Shown: positions 1 through 47,877 of the stretch, piece after piece | How positions within the stretch are numbered: the first letter of the stretch is position 1 | Layout: every line of letters begins with the position of its first letter | Source: Diplonema papillatum | Lineage: Eukaryota > Euglenozoa > Diplonemea > Diplonemida > Diplonemidae | Direction of reading: 5' to 3' | NCBI GenBank assembly: GCA_030068145.1 | Contig: JAPJBO010000835.1 | Span: 1 to 64,000, forward strand | DNA: 64,000 nt | Translations under genes and position numbers: made by a program | Notes under the pieces: generated by a model | Database searches by the model: none | Told to the model about the DNA's origin: nothing | What the model saw: the letters and a program-made list of their open reading frames with translations, nothing else

Positions 1-3000
1 GTCTCGCATCACGAGCGACCAGACTGCGCAAACGTGTGCCACAAGTTCTTCCAGATTGAGGAACAGGCTCCTATCCAGTTTGAACAGCGTCGACACTGTC
101 TTTGCCACCAGCCCTCTCCCCTTGGTGTCATCTGCAAGCTTCTCCCTAAGGTCCGGGTCTTCTTCGCTAGATCTGTGACACCCTTGCTCACGTTGTCACG
201 CACTAGTTCCTCGAAACACTGCGTGATACGAAGCACTGACTCCTCAAGAGCAGTCACCACCTCGGGCTTGACGTTGTTCGTCGACTGAAACTTCGCCAAC
301 AGCTGCGAAGGTGTCTGTCCGGATATGCGACTGTTGAAGATTTCGAGTGACGCCGCCTCAAATTCCGAGTATTCGCTGACAATCTGGGTGCCCACGCCGC
401 CCTCAGACCTTCTGAGACATGCAGCAAGGTCCATCATCAACTTCACTCGATCCTGTTTGTCGGACACCGCCTTCGCAACCCGTTTCAGCATGTCTCTGAC
501 CTTCATGCGAACTGGCCTGTTCCGACACTCAACACTGTTCCCAATGATTTGCAGTCCTATCAACGCCCGTGCAACGTCTTCGGCGCTCGACGAAAGCACC
601 AACAGCTTGTCTTCATGCGCCGACAAAGCGGCTACAACATCTTCTCGAGTATGCCTCGTGACCTCAACAACACCACTCACAGGGCACCCTTCGAGACTAG
701 CAAGGTTGTTGACTACGTTGTTCGCAGCCGACCAGTCCTGCTTTGTGACCGCAGACAACCCCGCTTCTGAGAAACCTGCCATCGCATGTTGAAGAAGACT
801 CGCCGACAGGCCAGCCGCTGCTGCTGCCTCGGGCGACGTGGAATCCAGTGCCTTGATACTTGTCGTCAAACGCTGGTAATACTCCTTCCGAGCGACCGTG
901 TCGGTCTGCGTCGTGACACTCGTTGCGAGGGCTTTTATAACCGCCTCATGGTCTTTAAGTTTACGTGCAAGCTGCAGCTTTCGCGACGGAACGTTGAACA
1001 CAGCGTCGCGCATGACTTTCACAATCTTCACCATTTGTAGTGAAGGTCTTTCACTCTCCGAACTTGACTCAGCTGTATCCGCAAGTTCTAGCAGGACGAC
1101 CATGATATTTTCCACGTACTCTACTTCAGCCCATATTGAGCCCTCTGAGTAGCAGTCCCCCTCAACAAACTCTGTCAGCCTCTTCTTGAGGGCAAGCACC
1201 ATGTCCGAAACACGACGAAGAACATCTGAAACTCCAGCACTGATCATAACGAAGTCTTCAACTTTTTGCTTGTCAAACGTATCGCAGTGACGCATTGCAT
1301 CCCAGAACGGCGCAACGAACTCTCTCAAACGCTTCACAAAACCAGTAGACTTGTCTGCGGTGCGCTGGCAAATATTACGAGCCGTCTTCAACGATGACTC
1401 AGCAAAACTGTCCATCAGAGTTTTGCTCATTTGCTTTACGTCGGGTTGCCAAATTGAACACAGCGCATCAGGAATCGTAAATCTGAGGGTTCAACCTGCC
1501 GTAACTCCAAGTTTTCGAGTACCGTTTCCATGCCCGCGTTCGCAGCTTCTTTCGTCTCCGGCGCTTTGGACATTTCGTCGATCACCGACAGGCGACCTTC
1601 TTCGATCGCCTTCTCCACTCTCTTTTGCCCCTTTCTGCATTTTTTCGCACTTTGTTCTTTCGAATTGTTCATCTCCGATTGGAAATGCACCGCGAGGGCC
1701 TTCTCCCCTACCGTCGTCCAGACGTTTCAACACAGCCTCAAGCTTTTCCGACGAACCCATTGTTGACGTGCTCACACATGCTTGCAATGACCTTTCTACG
1801 TGGTCACGAACTCTCTTTTGATCCGCATGCCGCTCAGAATGAGCCAGCTTTTCAAACATCTCCCAATGCCGCAGTCCCCAATCCACAACGCTTGACTTCT
1901 CGAGTTCCTGCCACGGACGCCTTCACTTCGTTGCGCTCTCTTTCGATGTTTGCTTTCAACGCTTCCTGCGTCGTCGGATCAAGAACTCCCATGCACCACT
2001 CTAACTCTCTGCTTGCCTTTGACAACGCTACCCACCCGCCCCTTTCTTCCTCTCGATTAAGTCTGTCCACAACTTGGTTCTGCACGGTGCCACGCAGCTT
2101 CTCGATTTCCCTTCGCGCCTCGGCTTCATGCCCGGACAGGAACGACAAGTCGCTTCTCTGCATCAAATCTAAGAAGTCAGCCGCCTTCGCAAGCCCATCG
2201 TCACCTTCTCTTCTCGTCCGCCGCTCAAGATTCTTTGCAAGAGATATCAGCCTGTCTTTCACGCTAACTTGGAGTCGGCGCAGTAGGCTGTCACAAGCCA
2301 GGGCGTTCCCCAGCATCGCATACAACGTCGCCATCCTACGTGCCTCTCCCAGCACGGAGTCCACGTCTGCTTCGTCCGAGAATTTGACGTCGATGCAGCG
2401 AGTGAGCTCCCGTTTCTTCTCGTTGTGCATGTCGATGATGGTTTTGAACGACAACTTCCCTTCTGCAAATCGGTCGAGTCCCACGAGTTGATCAGCAACC
2501 GAGTACATACGCAAGAAGTAGGAGTCGTCTTTCAACTCGCTCTCTCGGATTCGCTGCTCCACACTTCTCAGTTGGGATACGAGCCGCATCACCACAGAGT
2601 GTTTGGTGGCGTATTCTTTGTTCTTCGCTTCCGTGAAGAAGCTAAAGTTCCCTTCCAAGTCGTGCACCGCCTGGCGAAGGCCGAGGATGTCCCACTCGGT
2701 TCCCGGATCAATTGTGAGGTAGCTCTCAATTTTGGCGAGGCACTCTGCCGAGTTCGATGCCACTATTGATCGGCGATCGTCGAAGTGCCTCCGCAAAGTG
2801 TGAAGTTGCACGTCCGCATCTGGGAACTCAATCCCGGCGCGCCTTACCGCTTCAAGGAAAGCCAGCGACTCTTCCAATTTCTCAGTGTTGGAGTTCGGTA
2901 CCTCCAGCATGGCTTCGCACTCCGCAATGCCTTGCTCTACTTCATCATAATCTGAGAACCCCCCACGCTCTTCGAGGATGCACTCCTTTTCGCTAGCATA

Positions 3001-6000
3001 CGACAGCGGGTAGTTCCTTTCCACGATTGCTAACTCCTTTTGCACTTCCTCTAGCCTTTCTTGCCTCTGCTTGCTGACGGACTTGCATGAGGCAAGTTGT
3101 TCCTCTCCTTGAACTAGTTCGTTGAATTCGTCCACCAACCGGCGAACGGTATCGACCCCAGCTGCAGTAACCCGATCCGGCTTCAAGCTCGCCAACGAGG
3201 TGTACTTACAGAGAATCCGCAGGCACGGGTTTGTTGAAAGGATTTCACTGCGGAGTTGCTGCAGATCTACAAGCCTCACCGCCGGATCTCGCAGGAGGTG
3301 GACGAGCCTCTTGAAAAAAGCGGTGTACGCTTCTGCATACGGCCGGTATGAATCCTCGACGGCTCGCATGGCGCAGCTGAGCTTAACACCGCTGACAAAT
3401 TTGTACAATCGTTGCAGCTTCTTCACGAAGGGCATATGAGACGGGTCCAGCAGCTCCGCTTCGTTCCCAAGAGGTACATCGGTCAGCACGAAGCCAAGAT
3501 CCGAGATGGCGTCATCTGCTGCTTTAGCAGCATCGCCGGGCGCCGTCTCGAGCCCATCGAACGCGTTTTTCAATGCTCGATCCGACGTTGCCGGCGTCTT
3601 GGGACTCAAGTACTCTGACACAACTTCACACACCCTTCGGGAAATGCTGGACATCTTCTCGCTGTACTTCGCATGCCACTGAGGTTCTCTCAAAGTGTCC
3701 GAAAACTCGTTTCTAATAAAAGCCACAGCCTCCATAGAGCGATCGCGAAGGTCCGAGTCCTTCGCCTCCAGATTCGCCAACGCATTGAGAAACACGCCAT
3801 CGACGGTTTGTTTGATTGCTGCCATTGCTTCGTGGAGCTGGTCGGTTCCGAATCCAACCGGTTCCCAGCCCAAAACATCACCCGCCTGCTGTAAACTGCG
3901 AAAGAAGAGGACACGGTCTTTCAGGTCGTTCTGATCCACAAAATGGAAATCCACAGCCAACTGCCCCGTTTTCTCCAAGTGTTCGTTCAGTGCATGGCGC
4001 AGTGCGATCGCATCATCCACAGCCACGGACACACCGAAACTGCTGCCGACACTCCGACATGTTCGCAGCGCATCGACAAAGGCGGCAGCCTTGTTGTCGA
4101 CGACGGCTACTTGCGCTGCCTTGCATTCGGCGCTGACTCTTTCTCTGGCCCTACCTTGGCTGTCGGCGAGCACCCTTGTGCATCCTTCTCCTCTCAATGC
4201 CGTGGCAAGGTACGTGCACTTCTTCCAGCCTTCCCTGCCGATAGTAGGGTTTGCCGCAGCTGCTTCATGAGCAGCGTCACAGAACAATGCTACCAAGGCG
4301 CAGCTGTCGACCGCGACTTTGATTGGAAGTGTTTGCTGCATTCTTCGAAGCTGCTCTTCGCACTCCACGAGTTTCGACCCCGCCTGTTCATCAAACGTGG
4401 TGCTATTATAGAATCCTTGCACGGCCGAATCCCGCTGGTCGGTCATCCTTCGCGCACAAGTATCCAAGCGTGCAGTGCAGTCATTCACTTCGTTCTGAAT
4501 CATTCTGTTGCCAGGCAGCATTTCTGCAGCCAGCGTGCGCAGCAACGCCAAACTCTTTCCCACTCGTCTGTACTCTCCAAGCGAGAGCATTCGCTCGAGA
4601 GCTTCACGTTCAATGCGAACCTGGTTGACCAGTGCCTGATCTGCGTAGGGGGGCAGGTCCATGTCGTTGAAAACCTGAGGAGACGCAGCTGGCTTCTGTA
4701 AGCATGCGCGCAGTACATCGTCGGGTACGCGCTGATGCGCAATGGCGTCGACGTCAGTAGTTGCATCGGGCTCAACTTTTTGTGCAACGTCGTGCAAGAA
4801 GTGAACCAACGCCCGTAAGTTGGGGTCTGTACTCCTTGTCGCTATGTCGCGGATTTCGTGGTGCACTGCATAGGCACGATGCGGCTCCACTTCAGATTCC
4901 ACCTCTTTGCTGGAAGGGTCGAAGCACCGGTTGCATAGCGCTTGCAGCTTAGGGTCGTCTGTGCTCTTGACTTCGCGTTTCGTCCCGTCCCACGTGGCGA
5001 ACATGAACACGCACGTGTCCTGCTTCAACTTCAAGAAGTACACTGCTCGCCCCGCAAGCACCTCCTCCTCCTGCAACTTGCGCGTACTGTCTCCTGCAAA
5101 ACAACGGATGCGCGGCAACTGAAGCTGCTGCTTCAAGAACTCGTACACCCGAAGAAGGCGGTTATCCGTTGCACTCTCCCTTTCAGCATCTGCGATTACA
5201 GACGCCACCTCCTTCGTGAGCTTTTCGTAGAAAGCCTCGCAGTTCTGCTTCACGCTCCTCCTCGGAACGTCTTTCTTGTGACAATGAGTCAGAAAAATCG
5301 TCGAACTTCGCAGCATGTCTTCCAAGCAGTCCATCGACACCAGCGAAGCTATGTACTTCGCTGTTGACTTCAGCGTGTCGCCTCGAGACCCGAAGTCAGC
5401 TTGCATGACGAACGCAACGCGAACACTGCGACAACTCCGCAATGCAGCCCCAGCTGCCGTCCAGGATGCCAGCGTACGACCTGCTCCCCTGCTGTCTTCC
5501 CAGCCTACGGTGTCAACAAGGCTCACTGTGGAGGCACCAACGCCTATCTCCACACTTTGTGCAAACTCCGTCTCGCTCGTTGCGCTCTTGCCGATGCGGA
5601 ACTTCGTTGTAATGGCGTTCTCAACTGACGCCTCGACTCTTCCGTCCTCGTCGTATTGCAAGCCCTCTCCAGCGAGGAACAGCAACGTCGTTGTCTTTCC
5701 ATGATCTGTCCTTCCCATCAGCGCGATGACGTCTTGCCCTTCTAGAGCTGCCTGTGCTGCGCTCTTTTCCACGCCGAATCTCTCAACAGCGAGCCTTATG
5801 TCGAAGCAGTGAATCAGGGTCTTCACCTTCACCAATGTGTTCATCATGCGGGCGCAGTCGCCCCGCTTGCAGTCAATTTCGTACTCACGAAGCAGGGTTT
5901 CTACTTCGCTCGAAGCATAGCCTTCCTGCCTAACCACGACAGGGACCCAATGCGAGTTCGAAGGCACAACGCAGATACGGAGACTCCCGCAGACCGCATC

Positions 6001-6171
6001 CAGCAGCTCTGTGGCCGAACAATACGCATCGTCAACAGCGTCTCCAGAACACTCCCCCTCCCCAGCCCAACCCTCGCTCGTGTTGCTCACAGCAAAGTCG
6101 GATGTCTCCTGCGGTGCTTCTGCCGCCACGTGCTTTCGAGAAAAGAAATTGATCGTTTCTCGCTTGCTCAT
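1..6171 (-). pseudogene. Copy A of giant GTPase / coiled-coil / SecA-like gene, broken, 3' part beyond window
   Basis: This is the most damaged of three tandem paralogues. The first ATG in frame is at 6171. The position matching the start codon of copies B and C reads GTG (about 6127-6129), so the ancestral start is lost. An uninterrupted frame runs to about 1910 and includes the GTPase domain (P-loop GRTDHGKT, G3 DTVG) and the long helical region. Compared with B and C there is an extra base near 1910, an extra base near 1711, a missing base near 1441, and a frame change with altered sequence between about 75 and 115. About 133 residues of helical sequence present in B and C are missing in frame near 3080. 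The SecA motor and vWA domain would lie left of the window. Multiple independent breaks favour a pseudogene; assembly errors could explain some single-base differences but not all. Homology to B and C is beyond doubt; loss of function is inferred. Confidence 0.85.
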
Positions 6172-6665
6172 TGTTTTGTGTAAATTCTGCAAAAGATCCT
6201 TTGCGTGTCCTTGGAGAGGAACAGTTGCGTCGCAGCTGTCGAAAGTTAATGCTCGCGTGTTATGATCCGCCGGAGGTTTTCTCTGGTTTGACTCTCTGCG
6301 TGACGAAAAGGTGGTCTCAAGAGTTACCCCGCGCGCTCAGCGATTGCAAAGACACCGACGACGGAAGACCAAGCAGCGATGGCCAAGCCCTGCATATGTC
6401 ATAAACAACCTCCCAAGTGGTGTTCAGCATGGAATCGAGAAGTGCGACGGCAAACCAAGCGCGTCGCACCGTTTTAAGTGGAGGAGACCAACAGGAGCAA
6501 CAGGAGCAACAGAGGCAATGGGGGCAAGGAGCAACGGTGCACTGCAGAAGAAGTGAACAGGTCGAACAAGAGCAGCGATTGTCCACAGCCGACCGATATC
6601 AGCACCACAAGGGCTCCACGCTGCACAGAGCCTGTGCACGGTGCGTTTTGATTTTTCCTCCAATT
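6172..6665. other. 5' flank of copy A; no gene seen
   Basis: About the first 150 bases upstream of copy A resemble the upstream flank of copy B (shared short blocks such as tgtaaattctgc and tatgatccgc), so the duplicated unit included promoter-proximal DNA. A short gagcaacagg-type repeat lies at about 6485-6535. I see no protein gene. Confidence 0.5.
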
Positions 6666-11397: not shown

Positions 11398-14300
11398 CTA
11401 GGCGTAGCTGTACTTCTTCTTGTAAACCTCGACAAGGTCGCTGCCTCCGATGTCCTTCAATACGCACGTGCTCCAGTGGTTCAGGATGACGTCTGAAGCT
11501 CCCGGTGAGTTGACATCCAATGAACACGATGTTCCGCCCGTCCTTTTAGAGATGTCTTCGAAGTTGGTACGGGCCCAGTCGGCAAGAACGAATGTGTGGA
11601 CTGGCACGCTTTTGGCAGCAAGGCGATCCGCTTCGCGGGCATAATCCGTCTTCATCTGGGGCCACCGACCGCTTGGGTTTGCGGGAGCATCGCCCATCAA
11701 GATCACCTGCGATACTCCGCCGGCTTCACTTTCATTGGCTGCGTGTGCAAGACCGACTTCGACGGCTTCCCCTCCATTGTTTCCTCCTTCGGCGACGACA
11801 GGGCTGATGAAGTGCAGCAGAGGTTCGGCCGAGCTACTCCACTTAGAGTGAACAAATGGCTTGTGGTTGTAATTCCGATAGATCGCCAGCTGCAACGCGA
11901 ACTCGGTTGTGACTCCTGCGTCGTGCATCGTCGCGAACAGTCGTTTGAACGTTTCGCATAAAACAGCCTTCGCGCTGTGTATCAAGCCTTTCATAGACCC
12001 AGTGCCATCCAGTAGAATAACAGACCTTGAACGTTGCCCCGTCTGTGGTCCTTTGTTCCGTGACAGCAGGGCTGAAGTCACTTCCGCCGGCGACAGTTTG
12101 TGCAGCTTCGACCGCAGATCCATCGAGGTACGGTGTAACAACTCGAGACTCTTCATCTCGGCCCCTTGCAAAGTCAGTGTTCTTCCAACATGTTCGCCAC
12201 TCTTCTTCACGAGGTTCTCGTACAGTGAGCTCTCCTTCGACATTGTCGTCGCTGTCTCGGCGCTAATTTGAAGTGCTTCAAGCCGTTCTGCATCCAATAC
12301 CATCGAAAAACTACCATTCTGTCCCTGCCGTGCCTGCCTGCCTTTGATTTGAATGTGTTCCGACGCAGAACCCATGAATGTCTGAATTCCGTGGATGCCA
12401 CCCGCCTCCAGAAGCCGGGAATCATACACGACGAAGTCTGTTCCCCTTCCGTATGTACGCGTTGCGAACGTGACGGTGCCCGACATTGCAGCACTGAGAG
12501 TAAGCCTCGCTTTCTCTGCGTGCGAAAATCCTTCTACCATTCTCGTCACGGTAAAGCTCTGCGTGTCTCCGACACGCTTCATATAGTCGTTCAATACGGC
12601 TGCCGACTCGAAGAAGACAAGTACAGCACGCTTCCCGCCGTCGCGTCGCTTTTCGACTTCTTGCATCAGCTGCGTGAAATGATTGTCCGAAGCTACAACA
12701 TCGCCCCCCTTCGGAAAGAATTTTAGCTGGCAGTCACCGTATACAGATGGCATCTTCACGATGGACATTAGCCCGAAGTCGAGCAGAATCTGCGATTCCG
12801 ATGACCCTTTGGATGGTAGCGTCCCGCTGGCTCCCAGCACATAGTCAAACTCCTCCTTCGCAAGGTGCGCGTACGAGAAATCGCCGATCCTGAACAGGAG
12901 GTACACTGCTGCTCGCAGGTGCTCCTCTCGCTGGGCAAGCCACTTCTCGGGATACCCGACCTCGCAGCGTTCATACGCCGCCCACATGTTTTGGTAGTCG
13001 CACGTCTTCGAGTAGTCGACGCAGTCATGATCAACGAATCCGACTTCCACAGCTCCCGTGTCCCGCAGCTTCTCCTCGTTAACTTGCCACTGGTTGCCTT
13101 GGTAGTCCTTCAAATCCTGAATCATGATTCGCACTGCTTCCGAGAACAACGGCTCAAAATGTTTGCAGCTCAACGCCGCTTTCTTGAACTCGTCCGTCGT
13201 CACCACCTGACGATATGCAATTGCTTCCTTGTCGCTTCGGTGCTCCCACAGGTAGTCCGTCAGGCACTTGATACCCGGGCTGGGACGCTTCAACGAAGCA
13301 ACGTAGCTTTGCCCGTAGAATGACTCCTCAAAGAATACGTCCACCTCATCTATCAGCAGGATCCTCTTCGACCCTGAGTTCCGCCAATCTTCGCAGCAAG
13401 GCTCTCCGTCAAGCTTCTTAGACACCTTCTCCCGTAGTTCATCGCCGCAGATCACGTTTTCAACGCATTGGTTGATCGTTCCGTAGAACACGTTGCGAAC
13501 GTCCAACAACTCGAACAAAGCTTTGAACGACGCCGAATCTCTTGTGCTCAGGTACGCACTGTAGCACGCAATATACGGCTGCAGCCCTGCGAAAGAATAG
13601 CAGATTGACAACACCGCCAGGATCAGCGACTTCCCTTCACCAGTACCCACTTGCACTAGTGAGCCTTCCAACGGCCTCCCCGTAGCCCATCCCAGGCCGC
13701 AGCAGATGGCCAAGATCTGGACTGTGTGTGGCTTTCTGCAGTACTCTCCGCCCACCGAGTTGCTGTCTCGCATCACGAGCGACCAGACTGCGCAAACGTG
13801 TGCCACAAGTTCTTCCAGATTGTGGAACAGGCTCCTATTCAGTTTGAACCCCGACAGTGCCTGTCGCAACCACCCTCTTGGTGTCATCTGCAAGCTTCTC
13901 CCTAAGGTCAGGGTCTTCTTCGCTAGATCTGTGACACCCTTGGTCACGTTGTCACGCACTAGCCCCCGAAAACACTGCGTGATACGAAGCACTGACTCCT
14001 CAAGGGCAGTCACCACCTCGGGCTTGACGTTGTTCGTCGACTGAAACTTCGCCAACAGCTGCGAAGGTGTCTGTCCGGATATGCGACTGTTGAAGATTTC
14101 GAGTGACGCCGCCTCAAATTCCGAGTATTCGCTGACAATCTGGGTGCCCACGCCGCCCTCAGACCTTCTGAGACATGCAGCAAGGTCCATCATCAACTTC
14201 ACTCGATCCTGTTTGTCGGACACCGCCTTCGCAACCCGTTTCAGCATGTCTCTGACCTTCATGCGAACTGGCCTGTTCCGACACTCAACGCTGTTCCCAA

Positions 14301-17300
14301 TTACTTGCAGTCCTATCAACGTCCGAGCAACGTCTTCAGTGCCCGTCGAAAGCACCAACAGCTTGTCTTCATGTGCCGACAAAGCGGCTACAACATCTTC
14401 TCGAGTATGCCTCGTGACCTCAACAACACCACTCACAGGGCACTCTTCGAGACTAGCAAGGTTGTTGACTACGTTGTTTGCAGCCGACCAGTCCTGCTTT
14501 GTGACCGCAGACATCCCCGCTTCTGAGAAACTTGCCATCGCATGTTGAAGAAGACTCGTCGTATTCGGCGGATTTGACAGGCCAGCCGCTGCTGCTGCCT
14601 CGGGCGACGTGGAATCCAGTGCCTTGATACTTGTCGTCAAACGTTGGTAATACTCCTTCCGAGCGACCGTGTCGGTCCGCGTCGTTACACTCGCTGCGAG
14701 GGATTTTATAACCGCCTCATGGTCTTTAAGTTTACGTGCAAGCTGCATCTTTCGAGACGGAACGTTGAACACAGCGTCGCGCATAACTTTAACAATACCC
14801 ACCATGCGTGGTGATGGTGCTTCGTCACTCTCCAACATTGACGCAGCTGTATCCGCAAGTTCCTGCAAAACGACCATGATATTTTCCACGTGCTCTACTT
14901 CACCCCATATTGAGCCCTCTGAGTAGCAGTCTCCCTCAACAAGCTCTACCAGCCTCTGCTTGAGGCCAAGCACCATGCCCGAAACACGACGAAGAACATC
15001 TGGAACTCTGGCACTGTTCATAACGAAGCCTTCAACTTTTTGCTTATCAGACGCATCACAGTGGGCCATTGCATCCCAGAACGGCGCAACGAACTCTCTC
15101 AAATGCTTCACACAACAGGTGGCCTTGTCTCCGGTACGCTGGCGAATGATACGAGCCGTCTTCAACGATGACTCAGCAAGGCTGGCCATCAGTGTTTTGC
15201 TCAGTTGCGCAACGTCAGGGTTACCAAATTGAACACAGCGCATCAGGAATCGTAAATCTGCGGGTTCAACCTGCCGTAACTCTACCTCGTGGAGTACCGT
15301 TTCCATCCCCGCATTTGCAGCCTCTTTCGTCTCCGGCGCTTTGGACATTTCGTCGATCACCGACAGGCGGCCGTCTGCTATCGCCTTCTCCACTCTCTTC
15401 TGCCCCTGCTCTGCATACTTTTGCACTTTGTTCTTTCGTTTGTTCATCTCTGATTGGAAGTGCACCGCGAGAGCCTTCTCCCCTACCTCGTGCAGACGTT
15501 TCAACACAGCTTCAAGCTTTTCCGACGAACCCATTGTTGACGTGATCACACATGCTTGCAATGACCTTTCTACGTGGTCACGAACTCTCTTTTGATCTGC
15601 GTGCCGCTCTGAATGAGCCAGCTTTTCGAATATCTCCCAATGCCGCAGTCCCCAATCCACAACGCTTGACTTCTCGAGTTCCTCCACGGACGCCTTCACT
15701 TCGTTGCGCTCTCTTTCGATGTTTGCTTTCAACGCTTCCTGCGTCGTCGGATCAAGAATCCCATGCACCACTCTAACTCTCTGCTTGCCTTTGACAACGC
15801 TACCCACCCGCCCCTCTCTTCCTCTCGATTTAGTCTGTCCACAACTTGGTTCTGCACGGTGCCACGCAGCTTGTCGATTTCGCTTCGCGCCTCGGCTTCA
15901 TGCCCGGACAAGAATGACAAGTCGCTTCTCTGCATCAAATCTAAGAAGTCAGCCGCCTTCGCAAGCGCATCGTCACCTTCTCTTCTCGTCCGCCGCTCAA
16001 GATTCTTTGCAAGAGATATGAGCCTGTCTTTCACACTAACTTGGAGTCGGCGCAGTAGGCTGTCACAAGCCAGGGCGTTCCCCAGCATCGCATACAACGT
16101 CGCCATCCTTCGTGCCTCTCCCAACACGGAGTCCACGTCTCCATCGTCCGAGAATTTGACGTCGACGCAGCGAGTGAGCTCCCGTTTCTTCTCGTTGTGC
16201 ATGTCGATGATGGTTTTGAACGACAACTTCCCTTCTGCATATCGGTCGAGTCCCACGAGTTGATCAGCAACCGAGTACATACGCAAGAAGTAGGAGTCGT
16301 CTTTCAACTCACTCTCTCGGATTCGCTGTTCCACACTTCGCAACTGGGATACGAGCCGCGTCACCACAGAGTGTTTGGTGGCGTAGTCTCTGTTCTTCGC
16401 ATCCGTGAAGAAACTGAACGCAGCCTCCAGGTCGTGCACCGCCTGGCGAAGGCCGCGAATGTCCCACTCGGTTCCCGGATCACTTGTAAGGTAGTCTTCA
16501 AGTATGGCGACGCACACTGCCGAGTTGGATGCCACTGTTGATCGGCGATCGTCGAAATGCTTTCGCAAAGTATGAAGGTGCACGTCCGCATCTGGGAATT
16601 CAATCCCGGCACGCTTTACCGCTTCAAGGAAGGCCAGCGACTCTTCCAGCTCCTCACTGTTGCAGTTCGGCACCTTTAACATGGCTTCGCACTCCGCAAT
16701 GCCTTGCTCCAATTCATCATACTGCGATAATCCCTCACGCTCTTCCAGAATGCGCTGCGTTTCACTGGTTTGCGACAATGGGTCGTTCTTTTGCACGACT
16801 GCTAACTGTTTTTGCACTTCCTCTAGCCTATTCCGCTGCTTGCAGAGCGAGTCCTCTACAGTGCAGGCCGCGTCATCAATGCTCGTCGGCGTCACTGAGA
16901 AGGCTGCGCAGCTGTCAAGCAACTTGTCTTCACTCTTCACCAGCTCCTCTTCCAAAGCACGTATGCCGCGCAGGCTAGCTTCCTTATAATCTTTGTTCTT
17001 TATGTTCGATTCGTGCGCAGTTTTTAGCGCATAGAAACTGTCGTAGCCGTGTTCACGCAGCAGCTCCTTCTGCTGACGTCTGCGCTTGTTGCGTAAGCGC
17101 ATTAGGGGCCTGCTGCATTCCACCTTCTGCTCAAGCGTGTTGAGCTCATCAGACGTCTCGTCCGCTCTCTTGAGCAGCCACCTCCGATAATCGCCGAAGG
17201 TCTGACAGTCGGACTCGGCCAGATGCATCCGCAATCGGTCGATGATGGACTTGGATGAGGCAAGTTGTTGCTCTCCTCGAACTAATTCGCTGATTTCGTC

Positions 17301-20300
17301 CGTCAACCGATTAACGACAACGACCACAGCTGCAGTAACCCGATCCGCCTTCAAGCTCGCCAACGAGGCGTACTTACAGAGAATCCGCAGGTACGGGTCT
17401 GTTGAAAGGATTTCACTGCGGAGTTGCTGCAGATCAGCAAGCCTGTCAGCCGGACTTCGTAGGAGGCGAGTGAGTTTCTTGAGGAAAGCGGTGTACGCTT
17501 CTGCATACGGCTGGTAGGAAGCCTCGACGGCTCGGGTGGCGCAGCTGAGTTGACTTCCGCTGACAAGCTTATGCAATCGTTGCAGCTTCTTCACGAAAGG
17601 CATGTGAGACGGGTGCAGCAGCTCCGCTTCGTTTCCAAGAGGTACATCGGTCAGCACGAAGCAAAGGTGATCCGAGATCGCATCATCTGCTGCTCTAGCA
17701 GCGTCGCCGGGTGCTTTCTCGAGCTCATGGAACACGATTCTCAATGCCCGATCCGACGTTGCCAGCGTCTCGGGACTCAGGTACTCTGACACAACATCAC
17801 ACACTCTTTGGGAAATGCTTGACATCTTCTCGCTGTACTTCGCATGCCACTGAGGTACTCCCAACGTGTCCGAAAGCTCGGTTCGAATAAAAGCCACAGT
17901 CTCCTGAGAGCGAACGCGAAGGAACGAGTCCTTCGCCTCCAGATTCGTCAACGCATCCCGAAACACGCCATCGACGGTTTGTTTGATTGCTGCCACCGCT
18001 TCGTTGAGCCGGTCGGTTCCGAATTCAACCGGTTTGCAGCTCAAAACATCATCCGCCTGCTGCAATCCGCGGACGAACAGGACACGGTCTTTCAGGTCGT
18101 TCCGTCGTCCCTGATCTACAAAATGTAAATCCGCAGCCAACTGCAGCGTTTCCTCCAAGTGTTTGTTCAGTGCATGGCGCAGTGCGATCGCTTCATCCAC
18201 GGCCACATTGAAACTGCTGCCGACATTCCGACATGTTCGCAGCGCATCGACAAAGGCGGCAGCCTTGTTGTCGAGGACTGCTACCTGCGCTGCCTCGCAT
18301 TCGGCGTTGACTCTTTCTCTGGCTCTAGCTTCGCTGTCGGTTAGCACCCTGACGCATCCTTCTTCTCTCAACGCCGTGGCGAGATACAAGCACTTCTTCC
18401 AGCCTTCCCTGCCGACAGTAGGGTTTGCCGCGGCTGCTTCATGAGCAGCGTCACAGAACAAAGCTACCAAGGCGCAGCTGTCGATCGCGACTTTGATTGG
18501 AAGTGCTTGCTGCATTCTTCGAAGCTGCTCTTCGCACTCCACAAGTTTCGAACCCGCTTGATCGTCAAACGAGGTGCTAATAGAAAATGCTTGCGCAGCC
18601 GAATCCCGCTGTTCGGTCATCCTTCGCACACAAGTATCCAAGCATGCAGTGCAGTCGTTCACTTCGTTCTGAATCATTCTGTTGCCAGGCAGCATTTCTG
18701 CCGCCAGCGTGAGCAGCAACGCCAAACTCTTTCCCACTCGTCCGAACTCTCCGAGCGAAAGCATTCGCTCAAGAGCTTCACGTTCAATGCGAACCTGGTT
18801 GACCAGTGCCCGGTCTGCGTTGGGGGGCAGGTCCATGTCGTTGAACACCTGAGGGGATGCAGCTGGCTTCTGTAAGCATGCGCGCAGTACATCGTCGGGT
18901 ACGCGCTGATGAGCAATGCTAGTGGTTGCGCCGGGCGCAATCTTTTGTGCAACGTCGTGCAAGAAATGAACCATCGCCTGTAAGTTGGGGTCTGTACTCC
19001 TTGTAGCTATTTCACGAATTTCGTGGTGCACTGCATAGGCATGCTCCGGCTCCAACTCGGGTTCCATCTTGCCGCCTGAAGGGTCGAAGCACCGGTTGCA
19101 TAGCGCTTGCAGCTCAGGGTCGTCTGTCCTCTTGACTTCCCGTTTCGTCCCGTCCCACGTGGCGAACATGAACACGCACGTGTCCGGCTTCAACTTCAAG
19201 AAGTACACTGCTCGCCCCGCAAGCACCTCCTCCTCCTGCAACTCGCGCTCACCGTCTCCTGCAGAACAACGGATGCACGGCAACTGGAGCTGTTGCTTCA
19301 AGAACTCGTACACCCGACGAAGGCGAACATCTGTCGCACTCTCTCTCCCAGCATCTGCGGTTACAGACGCCGCTTCCTCCGCAAGTGTCTCGTAGAAAGC
19401 CTCGCAGTTCTCCTTCACGCTTGTCATTGGAACGTTCTTCTTGTGACAATGAGTCAGCAAGACCGTCGAACTCCGAAGCATGTCTTCCAAGCAGTCCATC
19501 GACACCAGCGAAGCTATGTACTTCGCTGTTGTCTTCAGCGTGTGGCCACGAAGTCCGAAGTCAGCTTGTATGACGAACGCAACGCGAACACTGCGACAAC
19601 TCCGCAATGCAGCCCCAGCTGCCGTCCAGGATGCCAGCGTACGACCCGCACCCCTGCTGTCTTCCCAGCCTACGGTATCAACAAGGCTCACTGTGGAAGC
19701 ACCAACGCCTATCTCCACACTTTGTACGAACTCCGTCTCGCTCGTTGCGTTCTTGCCGATGCGGAACTTCGTTGTAATGGCGTTCTCAACTGACGCCTCA
19801 AGTCCTCCGTTGCGACGGTTGTATTGCAAGGTCTCGCCAGCGAGGTACAACAACGTCGTTGTCTTTCCTTGGTCTGTCATTCCCATCAGCGCGATGACGT
19901 CTTGCCCTTCTAGAGCTGCCTGCGCTGCGCTCTTCTCCACGACGAATCTCTCAACAGCGAGCCTTATGTCGAAGCAGTGAATCAGCTTCTTCACATCGGC
20001 CAATGTGTTCATCATGCGGACGCAGTCGCCCCGCTTGCCGAGAGTTTTGTATTCATGAAGCAGGGTATCCACTTCGCTCGAGGCGTAGCCTTCCTGCCTA
20101 ACCACGACAGGGACCCGTTCCCAGTTTGGAGGCACGACGCAGGTACCGAGACTCGCACAGACCACGTCCAGCAGCTCTGTGGCCGAACAAGACGCATCGT
20201 CGACAGCGTCTCCAGAACACTCCGCCTCCCCAGCCGCACTCTCGGTCGCTTTGCTCGCAGAAGCGAAGTCGGATGCTTCCTGCGGAGTTGCGGATGCCGC

Positions 20301-20303
20301 CAT
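11398..20303 (-). pseudogene. Copy B: GTPase / coiled-coil / SecA-like motor / vWA giant protein, one frameshift
   Basis: This is the best preserved copy. It starts at ATG 20303 and ends at TAG 11398-11400, about 2,970 codons, with no intron needed. Residues about 135-300 form a P-loop GTPase: G1 GMTDQGKT at 141-148, G3 DTVG at 209-212, and a THCHKK block at the G4 place. A long helical region with few recognisable motifs follows. The SecA-type motor has Walker A VGTGEGKS (about 13628-13650), Walker B ILLIDEVDVFF, LGASGTL, ATRTYGRGTDF and QIKGRQARQGQNGS. The C-terminal vWA domain has LLDGTGSM (MIDAS-like DxTxS) and ends in a Lys/Tyr-rich tail. One base is missing near 15758 relative to A and C, splitting the frame into about 1,515 and 1,453 codons. 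It may be an assembly error, so B could be a working gene. The substrate is unknown; it is not the chloroplast SecA. An ATP-driven, GTP-regulated unfolding or transport role is inference. Confidence 0.85.
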
Positions 20304-20812: not shown

Positions 20813-21905
20813 CAGCCTTGCGTTCGTTCGTGTGGAACGGCGTTGTGTTTTCCTTTTCAGCTCGTCCCGACGGTGAGGTACAGAGTATGCAGAGAGGCTG
20901 AGAAGGCCGGGATTAGAGTCACCGGCTGGGGTAGCCCCCTGAAACTGCTCGCCGATTTTTCAAGGCTGGTCGAAGCGCAATTGTGTGATGAATACAATGC
21001 AAAGAATGTATCAACAGAGTTCTTGTAGGCGGTGTTGTGTTTATGCGTCAGCTCGTCCGGACCGTTAGGTACAGAGTATGCAGAGAGGCTGAGAAGGCCA
21101 GGATTTAAGAGTCACCGGCTGTAGGGGTAGCCCCCTGAAACTGCTCGCCGATTTTTCAAGGCTGGTCGAAGCACAATTGTGTGATGAATAGAATGCAAAG
21201 AATGTATCAACAGAGTTCTTGTAGGCGGTGTTGTGTTTATGCGTCAGCTCGTCCGGACCGTTAGGTACAGAGTATGCAGAGAGGCTGAGAAGGCCAGGAT
21301 TTAAGAGTCACCGGCTGTAGGGGTAGCCCCCTGAAACTGCTCGCCGATTTTTCAAGGCTGGTCGAAGCACAATTGTGTGATGAATAGAATGCAAAGAATG
21401 TATCAACAGAGTTCTTGTAGGCGGTGTTGTGTTTATGCGTCAGCTCGTCCGGACCGTTAGGTACAGAGCATGCAGAGAGGCTGAGAAGGCCAGGATTTAA
21501 GAGTCACCGGCTGTAGGGGTAGCCCCCTGAAACTGCTCGCCGATTTTTCAAGGCTGGTCGAAGCACAATTGTGTGATGAATAGAATGCAAAGAATGTATC
21601 AACAGAGTTCTTGTAGGCGGTGTTGTGTTTATGCGTCAGCTCGTCCGGACCGTTAGGTACAGAGTATGCAGAGAGGCTGAGAAGGCCAGGATTTAAGAGT
21701 CACCGGCTGTAGGGGTAGCCCCCTGAAACTGCCCGCCGCCCTTTCAAGGTTGGTCGAAGCACCGATATGTGAAAAGAATGCAAAGAATGTGTCAACAGAC
21801 TGTGATTGCAGCCTTGCCGTCGTTCGTGTAGGCGGTATTGTGTTTTCGCTTCAGCTCGTCCGGACCGTAGGTACAGAGTATGCAGAGAGGCGGGATTTTT
21901 GAGTC
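20813..21905 (+). repeat. 196-bp satellite array
   Basis: Nearly identical units start at 21008, 21204, 21400 and 21596 (the word gtatcaacagag), exactly 196 bases apart, with diverged flanking units on each side. Each contains gtccggaccgttaggtacag, agtcaccggctgtaggggta and ctgaaactgctcgccg. No coding frame crosses the units. Confidence 0.95.
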
Positions 21906-24901: not shown

Positions 24902-27900
24902 CTAGGCGTAGCTGTACTTCTTCTTGTAAACCTCGACAAGGTCGCTGCCTCCGATGTCCTCCAAAACGCACGTGCTCCAGTGGTTCAGGATGATGTCTGA
25001 AGCACCCGGTGAGTTGACATCCAATGAACACGATGTTCCGCCCGTTCTTTTAGAAATGTCTTCGAAGTTGGTACGGGCCCAGTCGGCAAGAACAAATGTG
25101 TGAACCGGCACGCTTTTGGCAGCAAGGCGATCCGCTTCGCGGGCATAATCTGTAGTCATCTCGGGCCATCGATCGCTTGGGTTTGCGGGAGCATCGCCCA
25201 TCAAGATCACCTGCGATACTCCGTCGGCTTCATTTTCATTGGCTGCGTGTTGAAGACCGAGTTCGACGGCTTCTTCTCCATAACCTCCTTCGACGACGAC
25301 AGGGCTGATGAATTCGAGCAATGGTTCGGCCGAGCTACTCCACTTAGAGTGAACAAATGGCTTGTGGTTGTAATTCCGATAGATCGCCAGCTGCAACGCG
25401 AACTCGGTTGTGACTCCTGCGTCGTGCATCGTCGCGAACAGTCGTTTGAACGTTTCGCATAAAACAGCCTTCGCGCTGTGTATCAAGCCTCCCATAGACC
25501 CAGTGCCATCCAGTAGAATCAAAGACCGTGAACGTTGCCCCGTACGTGGACCCTTGTTCCGTGGCAACAAGGCTGAAGTCACTTCCGCCGGCGACAGTTT
25601 GTGCAGCTTCGACCGCAGATCCATCGAGGCATGGTGCAACAACTCGAGACTCTTCATCTCGGCCCCTTGCGACTCCAGTGTTCTTCCAACATGTTCGCTA
25701 CTCTTCTTCACGAGGTTCTCGTACAGTGAGCTCTCCTTCGACATTGTCGTCGCTGTCTCGGCGCTAATTTGAAGTGCTTCAAGCCGTTCTGCATCCAATA
25801 CCATTGAAAAACTGCCATTCTGTCCCTGCCGTGCCTGCCTGCCTTTGATTTGAATGTGTTCCGACGCAGAACCCATGAACGTCTGAATTCCGTGGATGCC
25901 ACCGGCCTCCAGAAGCCGAGAGTCATGCACGACGAAGTCTGTTCCCCTTCCGTATGTACGCGTTGCGAACGTGACGGTGCCCGGCGTTGCAGCACTGAGA
26001 GTAAGCCTCGCTTTCTCTGCGTGCGAGAACCCTTCTACCATCCTCGTCACGGTAAAGCTTTGCGTGTCTCCGGCACGCTTCATATAGTCGTTCAATACGG
26101 CTGCTGACTCGAAGAAGACAAGTACAGCACGCTTCCCGCCGTCGCGTCGCTTTTCGACTTCTTGCATCAGCTGCGTGAAATGATTGTCCGAAGCTACAAC
26201 ATCACCTCCCTTCGGAAAGAACTTCAGCTGGCAGTCACCGTATACAGATGGCATCCTCACGATGGACGTTAGCCCGAAGTCGCGCAGAATCTGCGATTCC
26301 GATGACCCTTCGGATGGTAGCGTCCCGCTGGCTCCCAGCACATAGTCAAACTCCTCCTTCGCAAGGTGCGCGTACGAGAAATGGCCGATCTTGAACAGGA
26401 GGTACACTGCTGCTCGCAGGTGCTCCTCTCGCTGGGCAAGCCACTTCTCGGGATACCCGACCTCGCAGCGTTCATACGCCGCCCACATGTTTTGGTAGTC
26501 GCACGTCTTCGAGTAGTCGACACAGTCTTGATCAACGAAACCGACTTCCACAGCTCCCGTGTCCCGCAGCTTCTCTTCGTTCACTTGCCACTGGTTGCCT
26601 TGGTAGTCCTTCAAATCCTGAAGCATAATCCGCACTGCCTCCGAGAACAACGCCTCAAAATGTTTGCAGCTCAACGCCGCTTTCTTGAAATATTCCGTCG
26701 TCACCACCTGTTGATGTGCAATCGCTTCCTTGTCGCTTCGGTGCTCCCACAGGTAGTCCGTCAGGCACTTGATACCCGGGCTGGGACGCTTCAACGAAGC
26801 AACGTAGCTTTGCCCGTAGAATGACTCCTCAAAGAACACGTCTACCTCATCTATCAGCAGGATCCTCTTCGACCCTGAGTTCCGCCAATCTTCGCAGCAA
26901 GGCTCTCCGTCAAGCTTCTGAGACACCTTCTCCCGTAGTTCATCGCCGCAGATCACGTTTTCAACGCATTGATTGATCGTTCCGTAGAACACGTTGCGAA
27001 CGTCCAACAACTCGAACAAAGCTTTGAACGACGCCGAATCTCTTGTGCTCAGGTACGCACTGTAGCACGCAATATACGGCTGCAGCCCTGCGAAGGAATA
27101 GCAGATTGACAACACCGCCAGGATCAGTGACTTCCCTTCACCAGTACCCACTTGCACTAGTGAGCCTTCCAACGGCCTCCCCGTAGCCCATCCCAGGCCG
27201 CAGCAGATGGCCAAGATCTGGACTGTGTGTGGCTTTCTGCAGTACTCTCCGCCCACTGAGTTGCTGTCTCGCATCACGAGCGACCAGACTGCGCAAACGT
27301 GTGCCACAAGTTCTTCCAGATTGCGGAACAGGCCCCAATCGAGTTTGAACCCCGATACGTTACTCAGTCGCTTCCTCACTTGAGCAGACCATCCGCTCGC
27401 GGGCTTCGATTTATTTCCTAAGCACCAGGGTCTTCTTCGCTAGATCTGTGACACCCTTGTTCACGTTGTCCCGCACTAGTTCCTCAAAACACTGCGTGAT
27501 ACGAAGCACTGACTCCTCAAGAGCAGTCACCACCTCGGGCTTGACGTTGTTCGTCGACTGAAACTTCGCCAACAGCTGCGAAGGTGTCTGTCCGGATATG
27601 CGACTGTTGAAGATTTCGAGTGACGCCGCCTCAAATTCCGAGTATTCGCTGACAATCTGGGTGCCCACGCCGCCCTCAGACCTTCTGAGACATGCAGCAA
27701 GGTCCATCATCAACTTCACTCGATCCTGTTTGTCAGGCACCGCCTTTGCAACCCGTTTCAGCATGTCTCTGACCTTCATGCGAACTGGCCTGTTCCGACA
27801 CTCAACACTGTTCCCAATTGTTTGCAGTCCTATCAACGCGCGTGCAACGTCTTCGGCGCTCGCCGAAAGCACCAACAGCTTGTCTTCATGTCCGACAAAG

Positions 27901-30900
27901 CGGCTACAACATCTTCTCGAGTATGCCTCGTGACCTCAACAACACCACTCACAGGGCACCCTTCGAGACTAGCAAGGTTGTTGACTACGTTGTTCGCAGC
28001 CGACCAGTCCTGCTTTGTGACCGCAGACATCCCCGCTTCTGAGAAACTTGCCATCGCATGTTGAAGAAGACTCGCCGTATTCGGCGGCTTCGACAGGCCA
28101 GCCGCTGCTGCTGCCTCGGGCGACGTGGAATCCAGTGCCTTGATACTTGTCGTCAAACGCTGGTAATACTCCTTCCGAGCGACCGTGTCGGTTTGCGTCG
28201 TGACACTCGTTGCGAGGGCTTTTATAACCGTCTCATGGTCTTTAAGTTTGCGCGCAAGCTGCCCCTTTCGCGACGGAACGTTGAACACGGCGTCGCGCAT
28301 GCTTTTCACAATCTTCACCATTTGTAGTGAAGGTCCTTTGTCACTCTCCGAAATTGAATCAGCTGTATCCGCAAGTTCTTGCAGGACGACCATGATATTT
28401 TCCACGTACTCTACTTCAGTCCATATTGAGCCCTCTGAGTAGCAGTCCCCCTCAACAAACTCTGCTAGCCTCTTCTTGAGTGCAAGCACCATGTCCGAAA
28501 CACGACGAAGAACATCTGAAACTCCAGCACTGATCATAACGAAGTCTTCAACTTTTTGCTTGTCTGAATCGTCGCAGTGACTCATTGCATCCCAGAACGG
28601 CGCAACGAACTCTCTCAAGTCCTTCACAAAATCGGTAGACTTGTCCAAGATGCGCTGGCGAAAAATACGAGCCGTCTTCAACGATGACTCAGCAAACCTC
28701 GCCATCAGAGTTTTGCTCACTTGTATTACGTCAGGGTTGCCAAATTGAACACAGCGCATCAGGAATCGTAAATCTGCGGGTTCAACCTGCCGTAACTCTA
28801 CCTCGTGGAGTACCGTTTCCATGCCCGCGTTCGCAGCTTCTTTCGTCTCCGGCGCTTTGGACATTTCGTCGATCACCGACAGGCACCCATCGGTGATCGC
28901 CTTCTCCACTCTCTTTTGCCCCTGTTCTGCATTTCTTCGCACTTTGTTCTTTCGGTTGTTCATCTCCGATTGGAAATGCATTGCGAGGGCCTTCTCCCCT
29001 ACATCGTCCAGACGTTTCAGCACAGTCTCAAGCTTTTCCGACGAACCCATTGTAGATGTGCTCACACATGCTTGCAATGACCTTTCTACGTAGTCGCGAA
29101 CTCTCTTTTGCTCCGCATGCCGCTCTGAATGGGCCATCTTTTCGAAAATCTCCCACTGCCGCAGACCCCAATCCACAACGCTTGACTTCTCAACTTCCTC
29201 CACGGACGCCTTCACTTCGTTGCGCTCTCTTTCGATGTTTGCTTTCAACGCTTCCTGCGTCGTCGGGTCAAGAACTCCAATGCACCACTCTAACTCTCTG
29301 CTTGCCTCCGACAACGCTACCCACCCGCCCCTTTCTTCCTCTCGATTCAGCCTGTCCACAACTTGGTTCTGCACGGTGCCACGCAGCTTTTCGATTTCTC
29401 TTCGCGCCTCGGCTTCATGCCCGGACAAGAAGGACAAGTCGCTTCTCTGCATCAAATCTAAGAAGTCAGCCGCCTTCGCAAGCAGATCGTCACCTTCTCT
29501 TCTCGTCCGCCGCTCAAGATTCTTTGCAAAAGATTTGAGCCTGTCTTTCACACTAACTTGGAGTCGGCGCAGTAGGCTGTCACAAGCCAGGGCGTTCCCC
29601 AGCATCGCATACAACGTCGCCATCCTTCGTGCCTCTCCCAACACGGAGTCCACGTCTCCTTCGTCCAAGAATTTGACGTCGACGCAGCGAGTGAGCTCCC
29701 GTTTCTTCTCGCTGTGCATGTCGATGATGGTTTTGAACGACAACTTCCCTTCTGCATATCGGTCGAGTCCCACGAGTTGATCAGCAACCGAGTACATACG
29801 CAAGAAGTAAGAGTCGTCTTTCAACTCACTCTCTCGGATACGCTGCTCCACAATTCTCAACTGGGATACAAGCCGCGTCACCACAGAGTGTTTGGTGGCG
29901 TAGTCCCTGTTCTTCGCTTCCGCAAAGAAGCTAAAAATTGCGTCCAAGTCGTGCACCGCCTGGCGGAGGCCGCGTATGTCCCACTCGGTGCCCGGATCAC
30001 TGGTAAGGTAGTCTTCGATTTTGGAGAGGCATTTTGCCGAGTTGGATGCCACTGTTGATCGGCGATCGTCGAAGTGCCTCCGCAAAAATGAAGGTGCACG
30101 TCCGCATCTGGGAATTCAATCCCGGCGCGCTTTACCTCTTCAAGGAAGGCCAGCGACGCTTCCAACTCCTCAGTGGTGCAGTTCGGCGGCTCCAGTATGG
30201 CCTCGCACTCCGCAATGCCTTGCTCCACTTCATCGCATTCCGAGAACCCCTCGCGCTCTTCGAGGATGCAGTACGTTTCGCTGACATACAACGGCTCGCT
30301 TCTTTGCACGATTGCTAAGTCTTTTTGCATCTCCTCTAGTTTTTGCCTCTGTTTGCTGAGCAAGTCTTCAATAGAGCAGGCCGCGTCATCAATGCTCGTC
30401 GGATTCTCATGGAAGGCTGCGCAGTTGCTCAGCAACTCGTCTTCACCCTTCACCAGCTCCTCTTCGAAAGCACGTGTGGCATGCAGCATGTCTTCCATTT
30501 CCCCCTTGACGCGCATGTTCGATTCGTGCGCGGTTTTCAGTGCGTGGAAGTTGTCGTAGCCGTGCTCACGTAGCAGCTCCTTTTGCTGCTGCTGCTTGCG
30601 CTTCTTATACATGCCCATTAGCTTCTTACTACGTTCGACCTTCTGCGCGAAGGCGTCGAGCTCATCAAACGTCTCGTCCGCTCTCTTGAGCAGCCACGTC
30701 TGATATTCGCCGAAGGTCTTACAATCAGACTCGGCCAGACGCATCCGCAATCGGTCGATGATGGACTTGGATGAGGCAAGTTGTTGCTCTCCTCGAACTA
30801 ATTCGCTGATTTCGTCCGTCAACCGATTAACGACAACGACCACAGCTGCAGTAACCCGATCCGCCTTCAAGCTCGCCAACGAGGCGTACTTACAGAGAAT

Positions 30901-47841: not shown

Positions 47842-47877
<36 letters not shown>

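Follow-up and report, generated by a model that had tools for sequence, protein, structure and literature searches.

A giant gene family joining a GTPase, a SecA-like motor and a vWA domain in Diplonema papillatum and in bacteria

INTRODUCTION

SecA is the pump that drives proteins across the bacterial membrane. What is a SecA-type motor doing between a GTPase and a vWA domain in the nuclear genome of a protist? The question was raised by a locus of the diplonemid Diplonema papillatum on contig JAPJBO010000835.1 (C835; 100,999 bases), of which the first 64,000 bases were analysed and are called the window throughout; the genome has 271,365,524 bases in 2,910 contigs. A first-pass annotation, made from the letters alone, had proposed that positions 11398-20303 encode one protein of about 2,970 residues carrying an AIG1/septin-like GTPase, a very long helical stalk, a SecA-type motor and a vWA domain. 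We report here that this domain order is conserved between the eukaryote and bacteria, and that we are dealing with an unusual protein family and not with a chance fusion.

RESULTS

The giant gene and its parts

The coordinates proposed for the gene held, and the seven motifs quoted for it (GMTDQGKT, DTVG, VGTGEGKS, IDEVDVFF, GRGTDF, QARQGQ and DGTGSM) were all present in the translations. However, the gene lies on the minus strand and is read in two frames: when both strands were translated, the plus strand of 11398-20303 was full of stops, and the minus strand gave two long frames. As these frames are parted by a single-base frameshift, a protein of about 2,970 residues is what the gene most naturally encodes, but not what the sequence as assembled gives. 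The window holds further copies of the gene, described below; the parts of this one, copy B, are as follows.

11398..20303, minus strand: copy B, the whole giant gene; two overlapping frames and one single-base frameshift at ~15.76 kb
15729..20303, minus strand: N-terminal frame P0001 (1,524 aa); carries the GTPase and the beginning of the linker
11398..15807, minus strand: C-terminal frame P0002 (1,469 aa); rest of the linker, SecA-like motor and vWA domain
19245..20027, minus strand: GTPase domain, with coordinates computed from the profile span; Walker A GMTDQGKT, G3 DTVG
13880..19240 (limits approximate), minus strand: long linker or stalk in which no domain was recognised; poor in proline plus glycine, a composition compatible with helix
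12283..13878 (3' limit estimated), minus strand: SecA-like motor; Walker A GTGEGKS, DEVD, GRGTDF, RQGQ
11398..12045, minus strand: vWA domain; DGTGSM, MIDAS (metal ion-dependent adhesion site) pattern DxTxS

The proposal that a GTPase, a SecA-type motor and a vWA domain belong to one gene of a eukaryotic nuclear genome is supported at the sequence level. Family-level comparisons, bacterial homologues and two paralogues all bear it out, and the single-gene reading rests on the bacterial homologues being in one frame and on a candidate intron at a shared place in the two paralogues.

Bacterial genes with the same domain order

We scanned one genome per species from 84,980 prokaryotic species; 405 stretches matched, 98 encode relatives, and the best 80 of the 98 were kept. 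Two of these, L017 and L021, both from gammaproteobacterial metagenome-assembled genomes (MAGs), carry all three domains in the same order, each in one frame running from stop to stop (3,093 and 3,464 codons, respectively), and they are the two bacterial matches among the relatives kept that extend into the vWA domain. The first-pass annotation had looked for support to homologues with the same domain order, and two paralogues and these two bacterial genes have now been found. A profile spanning motor and vWA (A2), built before L017 and L021 were known and without bacterial members of the clade described below, matches L017 at 2192-3067 and L021 in three pieces between 2404 and 3431. Pfam alone showed SecA_DEAD in both genes; beyond that, it gave weak GTPase families in L017 and neither a GTPase nor a VWA family in L021. 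The neighbouring genes are bacterial, namely aconitase, an MFS transporter, a GGDEF-EAL protein and DUF2207 around L017, and a Na+/H+ antiporter, SpoVR and a questin oxidase-like gene around L021. Nine of the ten neighbours scanned had a family, the tenth being 17668-18471 of L017.

The matches of L017, L021 and L019 (a further relative, see below) to the earlier GTPase profiles are partly by construction, as their rows helped to build them. The independent test was a leave-out test, in which profiles made from eukaryotic or bacterial rows alone were run against 2,270 distinct open reading frames (ORFs). The eukaryote-only GTPase profile recovered the gene of genome G138 (locus L144; 1.9e-31), L021 (5.1e-26, at 367-569), L017 (2.9e-23, at 139-348) and L019 (1.5e-15), and missed the truncated L018. 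The bacteria-only GTPase profile recovered all five eukaryotic genes (best 3e-22) and L018 (5.8e-10). The eukaryote-only vWA profile found L021 (2.1e-32, at 3174-3431) and L017 (2e-20, at 2819-2956) and no other locus outside the eukaryote, and the bacteria-only vWA profile recovered the eukaryotic members at 2.8e-11 or better. Outside the clade, the profiles matched only genomes G055 and G099 and an ORF of L096 (0.0015, ~10 bits).

Further relatives join the GTPase to the motor. L019, from a MAG labelled Actinomycetota, has 2,688 codons with both domains; L018, from a MAG labelled Chlamydiae, is cut by its contig at both ends and retains the rest of the GTPase and the motor. The 2,792-codon frame of G138 also joins the two domains, and was reached first by the GTPase profile, its motor being found afterwards. 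The GTPase profile matched 10 of the 369 genomes drawn from the class of genome G002, including G001, G002 and G138. One of the other genomes, G055, has two adjacent GTPase genes of the same profile (L145, 212-2470 and 2457-4472) with no motor match; this genome has DotI/IcmL.

A separate clade of SecA-like proteins

We built a tree of 28 rows, in which copies B and C of the window, the paralogues C215 and C919, and the bacterial L017, L021, L018, L019, L020 and G138 fall into one clade (support 100/100), whose stem measures 2.1 changes per column. Outside this clade lie the SecA-like proteins sampled from Rickettsiales, Amoebophilaceae and Megaera and the D. papillatum protein encoded on contig C179, and true SecA lies further out. 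The rows come from a set of 88 left after duplicate loci and short matches were dropped. This set was cut to 51 by removing rows filled to less than half and by keeping only eight of the Chloroflexota rows; 27 of the 51 plus G138 made up the final tree, and a quick tree of the 51 rows without G138 agrees on the clade. A GTPase was found for nine of the ten clade rows (in the partner frame of the same gene in case of the window copies and paralogues). Seven of these nine helped to build the first profile, and L018 and G138 did not. Constraining the eukaryotic rows to one clade was not rejected (approximately unbiased test, p 0.08), so that a single eukaryotic clade is neither shown nor rejected.

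The alignment A3 includes 16 of 23 bacterial or viral stretches, with Orientia, Legionella, Coxiella, Tatlockia, a Legionellaceae MAG and one Bacteroidetes row omitted. A Paenibacillus match (H1) was set aside; by reading it is an ordinary SecA, and it groups with true SecA. P0005 gave no match to viral contigs, and against phages it gave ten weak records (E 0.06-0.4).

Very long SecA-like frames were also seen in other bacteria. Candidatus Megaera polyxenophila, from a Euplotes culture, has two neighbouring giant SecA-like genes on a 57-kb plasmid (L001, 347-16024 and 16046-20419), one of 5,225 aa. Elusimicrobia MAGs have frames of 5,255 codons (L042, 2161-17925) and 4,433 codons (L049, 3329-16627), and a Ruminococcaceae MAG has one of 2,981 codons (L026, 3959-12901). 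The 2.5-Mb genome that carries L020 (G005) has six SecA_DEAD matches, four of them in frames of 1,580-3,178 codons.

The motor is a relative of SecA

Pfam had been named in the first-pass annotation as a check on all three domains; the search returned SecA_DEAD above its cut-off, VWA weakly and below cut-off, and AIG1 not at all. In P0002, SecA_DEAD (PF07517) scored 8.1e-9 and 35.6 bits against a cut-off of 24.6, and it was also above cut-off in P0005, in L011 and L012 (both paralogues), and in L017, L021 and L019; P-loop_SecA was weak and below the Pfam cut-off in copy B. Over 18 aligned SecA-like rows, T79, G80, G82 and K83 of Walker A, D177-D180 (DEVD), R478, G479, D481, G513, R514 and R517 are invariant. 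Against the PDB, the clade profile A9 matched SecA chains (5e-26 to 4.5e-14) and, less well, the RNA helicase Mss116 (3.9e-6 to 1.5e-5). It gave one continuous alignment over residues 82-599 of SecA 8ya0, and several chains aligned from ~82-98 to ~599-615.

The motor is, by its sequence, a relative of SecA and not SecA itself. The scores against NCBIfam SecA and SecA2 models were far below the cut-offs (best 45.3 bits against 862 for P0002, and 84.9 against 862 for C919), and the clade stands apart in the trees; this is not canonical SecA, in line with the earlier statement that it is not the chloroplast protein. It shares with SecA, the preprotein translocase ATPase of bacteria and plastids, a DEAD motor with the GTGEGKS, DEVD, GRGTD and RQG motifs. 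It differs from SecA in that the peptide clamp is not recognised, the GTPase and the long linker stand in front, and the helical wing and C-terminal linker are missing. SecA beyond residue ~599-615 is the helical wing, and our one-stretch alignments end there without matching it or the C-terminal linker; in full members the vWA domain stands after the motor, in place of these parts.

The GTPase is of AIG1/septin type by profile comparison

P0001 has no Pfam family at E up to 1, hence no AIG1. Pfam AIG1 (PF04548) was unmatched in the members scanned and is absent among the matches listed (25 of 32 families), and we rejected it as a Pfam-level assignment. The genome itself has six AIG1 places, none of them within a member of the giant family. 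When the GTPase profile A6 was compared by hhalign with six AIG1-family proteins encoded in the D. papillatum genome, the probability was 98.5 (E 3.3e-15, 154 columns), and the controls gave 0.3 and 0.1. The AIG1/septin-like assignment of the first-pass annotation therefore stands at the level of profile comparison, and not as a Pfam match.

MMR_HSR1 was found weakly in seven of eight members, the best at 2.2e-4 and 21.8 bits against a cut-off of 21.9. The best 60 of 318 PDB matches were mostly ABC and other ATPases aligned over little more than the Walker A region, and are for this reason uninformative; they include several septin chains, with spans longer than those of the ABC proteins. A phmmer search of the PDB with the N-terminal part including the GTPase (468 aa) returned nothing useful. 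The G4 pattern [NT]KxD is present as TKSD in C919, and T alone is kept in all eight rows. Taken together, the sequence comparisons support a GTPase of AIG1/septin type. It shares the G1-G4 region with the AIG1/GIMAP and septin GTPases by profile over 154 columns, with septin chains among the PDB matches; it differs from them in having no Pfam AIG1 match, in being lodged in a giant motor protein and in its poorly kept G4. AIG1 and septin GTPases assemble in the GTP state.

The vWA domain and the linker

DGTGSM had been described as a variant of the MIDAS motif. We observed that D13, T15 and S17 (DxTxS) of the first MIDAS motif are invariant in all seven members, hence the motif is not odd. The threonine of the second motif (GGT) is present only in C215, one of seven rows. 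The Pfam scores were below cut-off (VWA_2 in four of seven members, best 0.0021; VWA in three, best 0.0048; VWA_4 in three, best 0.0073). The vWA profile A5 matched 30 of the 369 gammaproteobacterial genomes, including G001 and G002, which had lent rows to it. Five of six fetched matches are VWA above the Pfam cut-off (PF25106, 1.8e-14 to 1.2e-12), and the sixth, L134, the best of them, has no Pfam match at 0.001. The domain shares the DxTxS motif, a GG-acidic segment and a GDAP strand with the vWA proteins of the DxTGSM-MIDAS kind (PF25106 VWA_4 and PF00092 type). It differs from them in standing C-terminal to a SecA-like motor and in falling below Pfam cut-offs on its own. Elsewhere in the genome, contigs C146, C4, C390 and C62 have open frames of ~10,660-10,980 codons with repeated VWA domains.

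In copy B, C215 and L017, proline plus glycine make up 5.4-8.2% of the linker versus 7.5-12.6% of the domains. The very long helical stalk proposed earlier is thus compatible with composition and goes no further than that; the linker is long and probably helical. In a simple hydrophobicity scan the peaks reached 1.4-2.0 over 19 residues, the usual threshold for such stretches being 1.6. The peaks of the C-terminal frames, L017 and L021 lie at or just after the motor Walker A, and the one in the N-terminal frame of C919 falls within the candidate intron. From these positions we consider that there is probably no membrane segment and that the protein is probably soluble.

Paralogues and the tandem array

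Beyond what the first-pass annotation had reported, we found that the giant gene occurs three times in the window and that two diverged paralogues and several remnants lie elsewhere in the genome. The paralogues C215 and C919, named after the contigs on which they lie (34% and 31% identity to copy C, respectively), each consist of a long N-terminal frame with the P-loop domain and a long C-terminal frame with the SecA motor and vWA. The two frames can be joined by a candidate GT-AG intron at the same place and in the same phase, after ELHEK in C215 and ELHTE in C919, the acceptors continuing with VCSQLLSSVT and VCNGIVTGVT. The C215 pair is one of many possible in-frame pairs, and the C919 donor was read directly from the DNA; the candidate intron is supported by its parallel position and phase in both paralogues. 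Over the C-terminal half, the ratio of nonsynonymous to synonymous substitution rates (dN/dS) between C215 and C919 is 0.26, with synonymous sites nearly saturated (dS ~2.5). The genome also has a stand-alone SecA-like protein of 1,060 aa on contig C179 (L015, 2829-6011), which groups with the Rickettsiales and Megaera SecA-like proteins.

The three window copies stand in tandem on the same strand, 13.5-14.2 kb apart. The other two are:

1..6192, minus strand: copy A, cut short by the contig start at base 1 and retaining the N-terminal two thirds; several indels of one base
24902..33819, minus strand: copy C; three frames, 29878-33819, 27833-30085 and 24902-27379

Copies B and C are 91.6% identical in DNA over an alignment of 8,970, and copy A aligns to both of them in two blocks at 87-92% identity. 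Contig C149 closes with a piece (323425-325404; 92% identity, one in-frame stop) that is probably the C-terminus missing from copy A. The same contig has a further, more decayed copy at 310750-315270 with several in-frame stops, and remnants lie on contigs C6 and C349. Pairwise dN/dS among the window copies, with poorly aligned parts masked, is 0.28-0.46, which indicates that they were constrained during at least part of their history.

Other features of the window were noted as follows. A tandem array of a 196-bp unit lies between copies B and C (20857-21799), a 63-bp unit is repeated 18 times at 100% identity (61966-63107), and an array based on 24 bp lies at 51558-54192. Exon-like frames on the minus strand (43208-44713, 45811-46701 and 50890-51471) resemble an intron-split family 31 alpha-glucosidase, as read from translations alone. 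Large-subunit (LSU) rRNA fragments occur on both strands, at 47718-47876 and 47921-48006 (plus), 38175-38326 and 40353-40433 (minus) and 6666-6784 (plus), these coordinates including one complete 5S gene. Three LSU pieces match the eukaryotic model and one the archaeal model, and they look like dispersed rRNA fragments.

Carrier genomes

The giant is an extra in all five genomes of L017-L021, since each has a separate true SecA, recognised by a full-length SecA_DEAD match (1.7e-120 or better). DotI/IcmL, the sole component searched of Dot/Icm, a secretion system directed at host cells, was found in four of six carrier genomes, which are all four gammaproteobacterial ones (G001, G002, G005 and G138) and not G003 or G004. 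The background was 49 of 369 in the class draw and none of 14 control genomes. Since G001, G002 and G138 lie within this draw (G001 and G002 being its starting points) and the carriers may be one lineage, the count is a description of lifestyle rather than an independent test. The bacterial carriers look intracellular.

DISCUSSION

That the architecture and the family are real we regard as close to certain. The giant protein is most likely a soluble, GTP-gated and ATP-driven protein-remodelling machine exchanged between the protist and intracellular bacteria, its mechanism being inferred. Upon binding GTP, the G domains would pair or assemble on a target, and the long linker would pass the GTP state to the distant motor, so gating it. 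The motor would then spend ATP to pull or unfold a polypeptide through a clamp, as SecA does but without SecY, and the vWA domain may dock the machine to an adaptor or a substrate through a metal ion. The lifestyle of the bacterial carriers and the hydrophobicity scan point to the eukaryotic cytosol as the place of action, where the machine might serve host defence or the bacterium. As the carriers look intracellular, the family has probably moved between protists and their bacteria. The mechanism in this form is tentative, and we would sooner doubt it than rely on it; the explanation as a whole, comprising a real family of about 3,000 residues, the mechanism and the exchange, comes near to an even chance without quite reaching it.

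Several observations weigh against this explanation. The two frames of copy B overlap in different phase, the break relative to copies A and C being the single-base indel at ~15.76 kb, and all three window copies have frameshifting indels, mostly of one base, at positions that differ between copies. G3 (DTVG) and G4 are degenerate in the window copies, so GTP use is not certain. PPXD (PF01043), the SecA peptide clamp, had no Pfam match in P0002, P0005, L011, L012, L017, L021 or L019, and the pulling of polypeptide by the motor is for that reason only inferred; the A9 alignment nonetheless runs through the PPXD position of SecA. Compared with the genome's own adhesin-like VWA domains, the vWA profile gave a probability of 31 over 15 columns, and against the PDB it gave nothing credible. 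Some 19-residue stretches exceed the hydrophobicity threshold, mostly in the helix after Walker A. In the profile scans vWA was unseen in L018 (where the contig ends), L019, L020 and G138, and L020, which has the motor, had no GTPase profile match. Lastly, G055 and G099, the two genomes read out of the seven others that matched the GTPase profile, have GTPases of this profile without a motor match in the stretch read.

Copies A-C could be a decaying tandem array of pseudogenes, the working members being only the C215 and C919 paralogues and the bacterial genes. Frameshifting indels at different sites in all three copies, the C149 copy with in-frame stops and the remnants on C6 and C349 fit such decay. 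However, copy B has one break in 8.9 kb, dN/dS among the copies is 0.28-0.46, and single-base indels in near-identical tandem copies are also typical of long-read assembly error. The D. papillatum genome is described, in the part of the report available, as 280 Mb in 6,181 contigs from PacBio and Illumina reads, with GT-AG introns and many tandem repeats (PMC10161547). We take decay of the window copies to be a serious possibility, though we incline somewhat against it, and it is compatible with the explanation preferred for the family. The gene might instead be part of a virus or mobile element that brought it into the genome, as the tandem copies and remnants, and one IMG/VR contig encoding a 3,555-aa SecA-like protein (L097), could suggest. 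That protein, however, groups with the Rickettsiales SecA-like proteins outside the giant-gene clade, and the two bacterial genes of full order sit amid chromosomal-type genes; we consider this origin very unlikely, although no search aimed at transposase or viral genes next to the window copies was made. The L097 frame (5114-15778; 3,555 codons) lies on a contig that is filed in IMG/VR and is possibly a misfiled bacterial one. Bacterial contamination of the assembly would agree with the relatives outside the genome being bacterial in the prokaryote and virus collections searched. In the window, however, there are a 5S gene and three pieces that match the eukaryotic LSU rRNA model, the paralogues share the position of the candidate intron and family members lie on several contigs; we rejected contamination on these grounds, and its chance is negligible.

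Two further alternatives concern function. A motor working on nucleic acid, like a helicase or translocase of the DEAD-box kind, would account for the match of A9 to Mss116 and for the clamp that Pfam did not recognise in the clade members scanned. The best SecA chains, however, score ~20 orders of magnitude better than Mss116, one alignment crosses the PPXD position, and in the tree (which has no helicase among its rows) the clade stands beside other SecA-like proteins; we consider action on nucleic acid improbable. The relationship to SecA could also be taken to mean a preprotein translocase of an organelle. Against this, every matching SecA model is far below its cut-off, the vWA domain replaces the helical-wing and C-terminal parts, the GTPase and linker are fused in front, and a true SecA is present besides in five of five bacterial carrier genomes tested. 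A plastid SecA was rejected on the missed cut-offs, the vWA replacement and the fused GTPase, and an organellar translocase of any kind is highly improbable. The protein-remodelling machine remains the reading that we prefer.

Related proteins are already on record, so it does not hold that nothing of the kind had been described. As far as the sections available to us go, Wolbachia has unusually long SecA-domain genes (wBol1_1091 and wBol1_1092), read as transfer from eukaryotes, with full-length insect relatives and domain matches in Tetrahymena, Polysphondylium and Salpingoeca, and two Amoebophilus SecA-domain genes were taken as a second transfer (PMC3639933). Excerpts of other reports tabulate the SecA DEAD-like gene lfa2470 under eukaryotic proteins transferred to Legionella (PMC4256840), place SecA-like and GIMAP-type GTPase domains among the Amoebophilus effector domains (PMC3482391) and describe giant secreted toxins of actinobacteria with SecA-like ATPase domains (PMC8195603). 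In the sections seen, the SecA-domain giants of eukaryotes and intracellular bacteria resemble the present family in being very long, in having a SecA-like motor and in horizontal transfer between the two groups (PMC3639933). They differ in that the proteins sampled from similar hosts (Rickettsiales, Amoebophilaceae and Megaera, and the one on C179) fall outside the clade (100/100) and come from ORFs without a GTPase profile match, the rows compared containing no insect, Tetrahymena or Wolbachia sequences. Among the papers listed from the open-licence literature, we found none on the combination of GTPase, SecA-like motor and vWA, which may have been published elsewhere. Proteins with a SecA domain are thus already known from eukaryotes and their symbionts, and what is new is the GTPase-motor-vWA variant among the SecA-like giants. 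Other protists may have the same order; our searches covered the prokaryote and virus collections and the D. papillatum genome itself.

A bolder version, which we consider unlikely, is that the protein is a cytosolic, GTP-switched unfoldase derived from SecA, serving as weapon or shield for host and bacterium alike in an intracellular infection. Protist-dwelling Dot/Icm and chlamydial bacteria would use it, it would have been taken into or out of the diplonemid nucleus, and the tandem duplication and decay would reflect an arms race. If this were true, no SecA-type motor before it would, to our knowledge, have had a defined task away from membrane secretion. The bacterial homologues are in single frames, and their separate domains could be produced and assayed in E. 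coli. If our inference of a protein-remodelling machine shared between protists and bacteria is right, SecA-type motors would have a wider range of jobs, and the family would be a specific candidate for conflict machinery that passes horizontally between protists and their bacteria.

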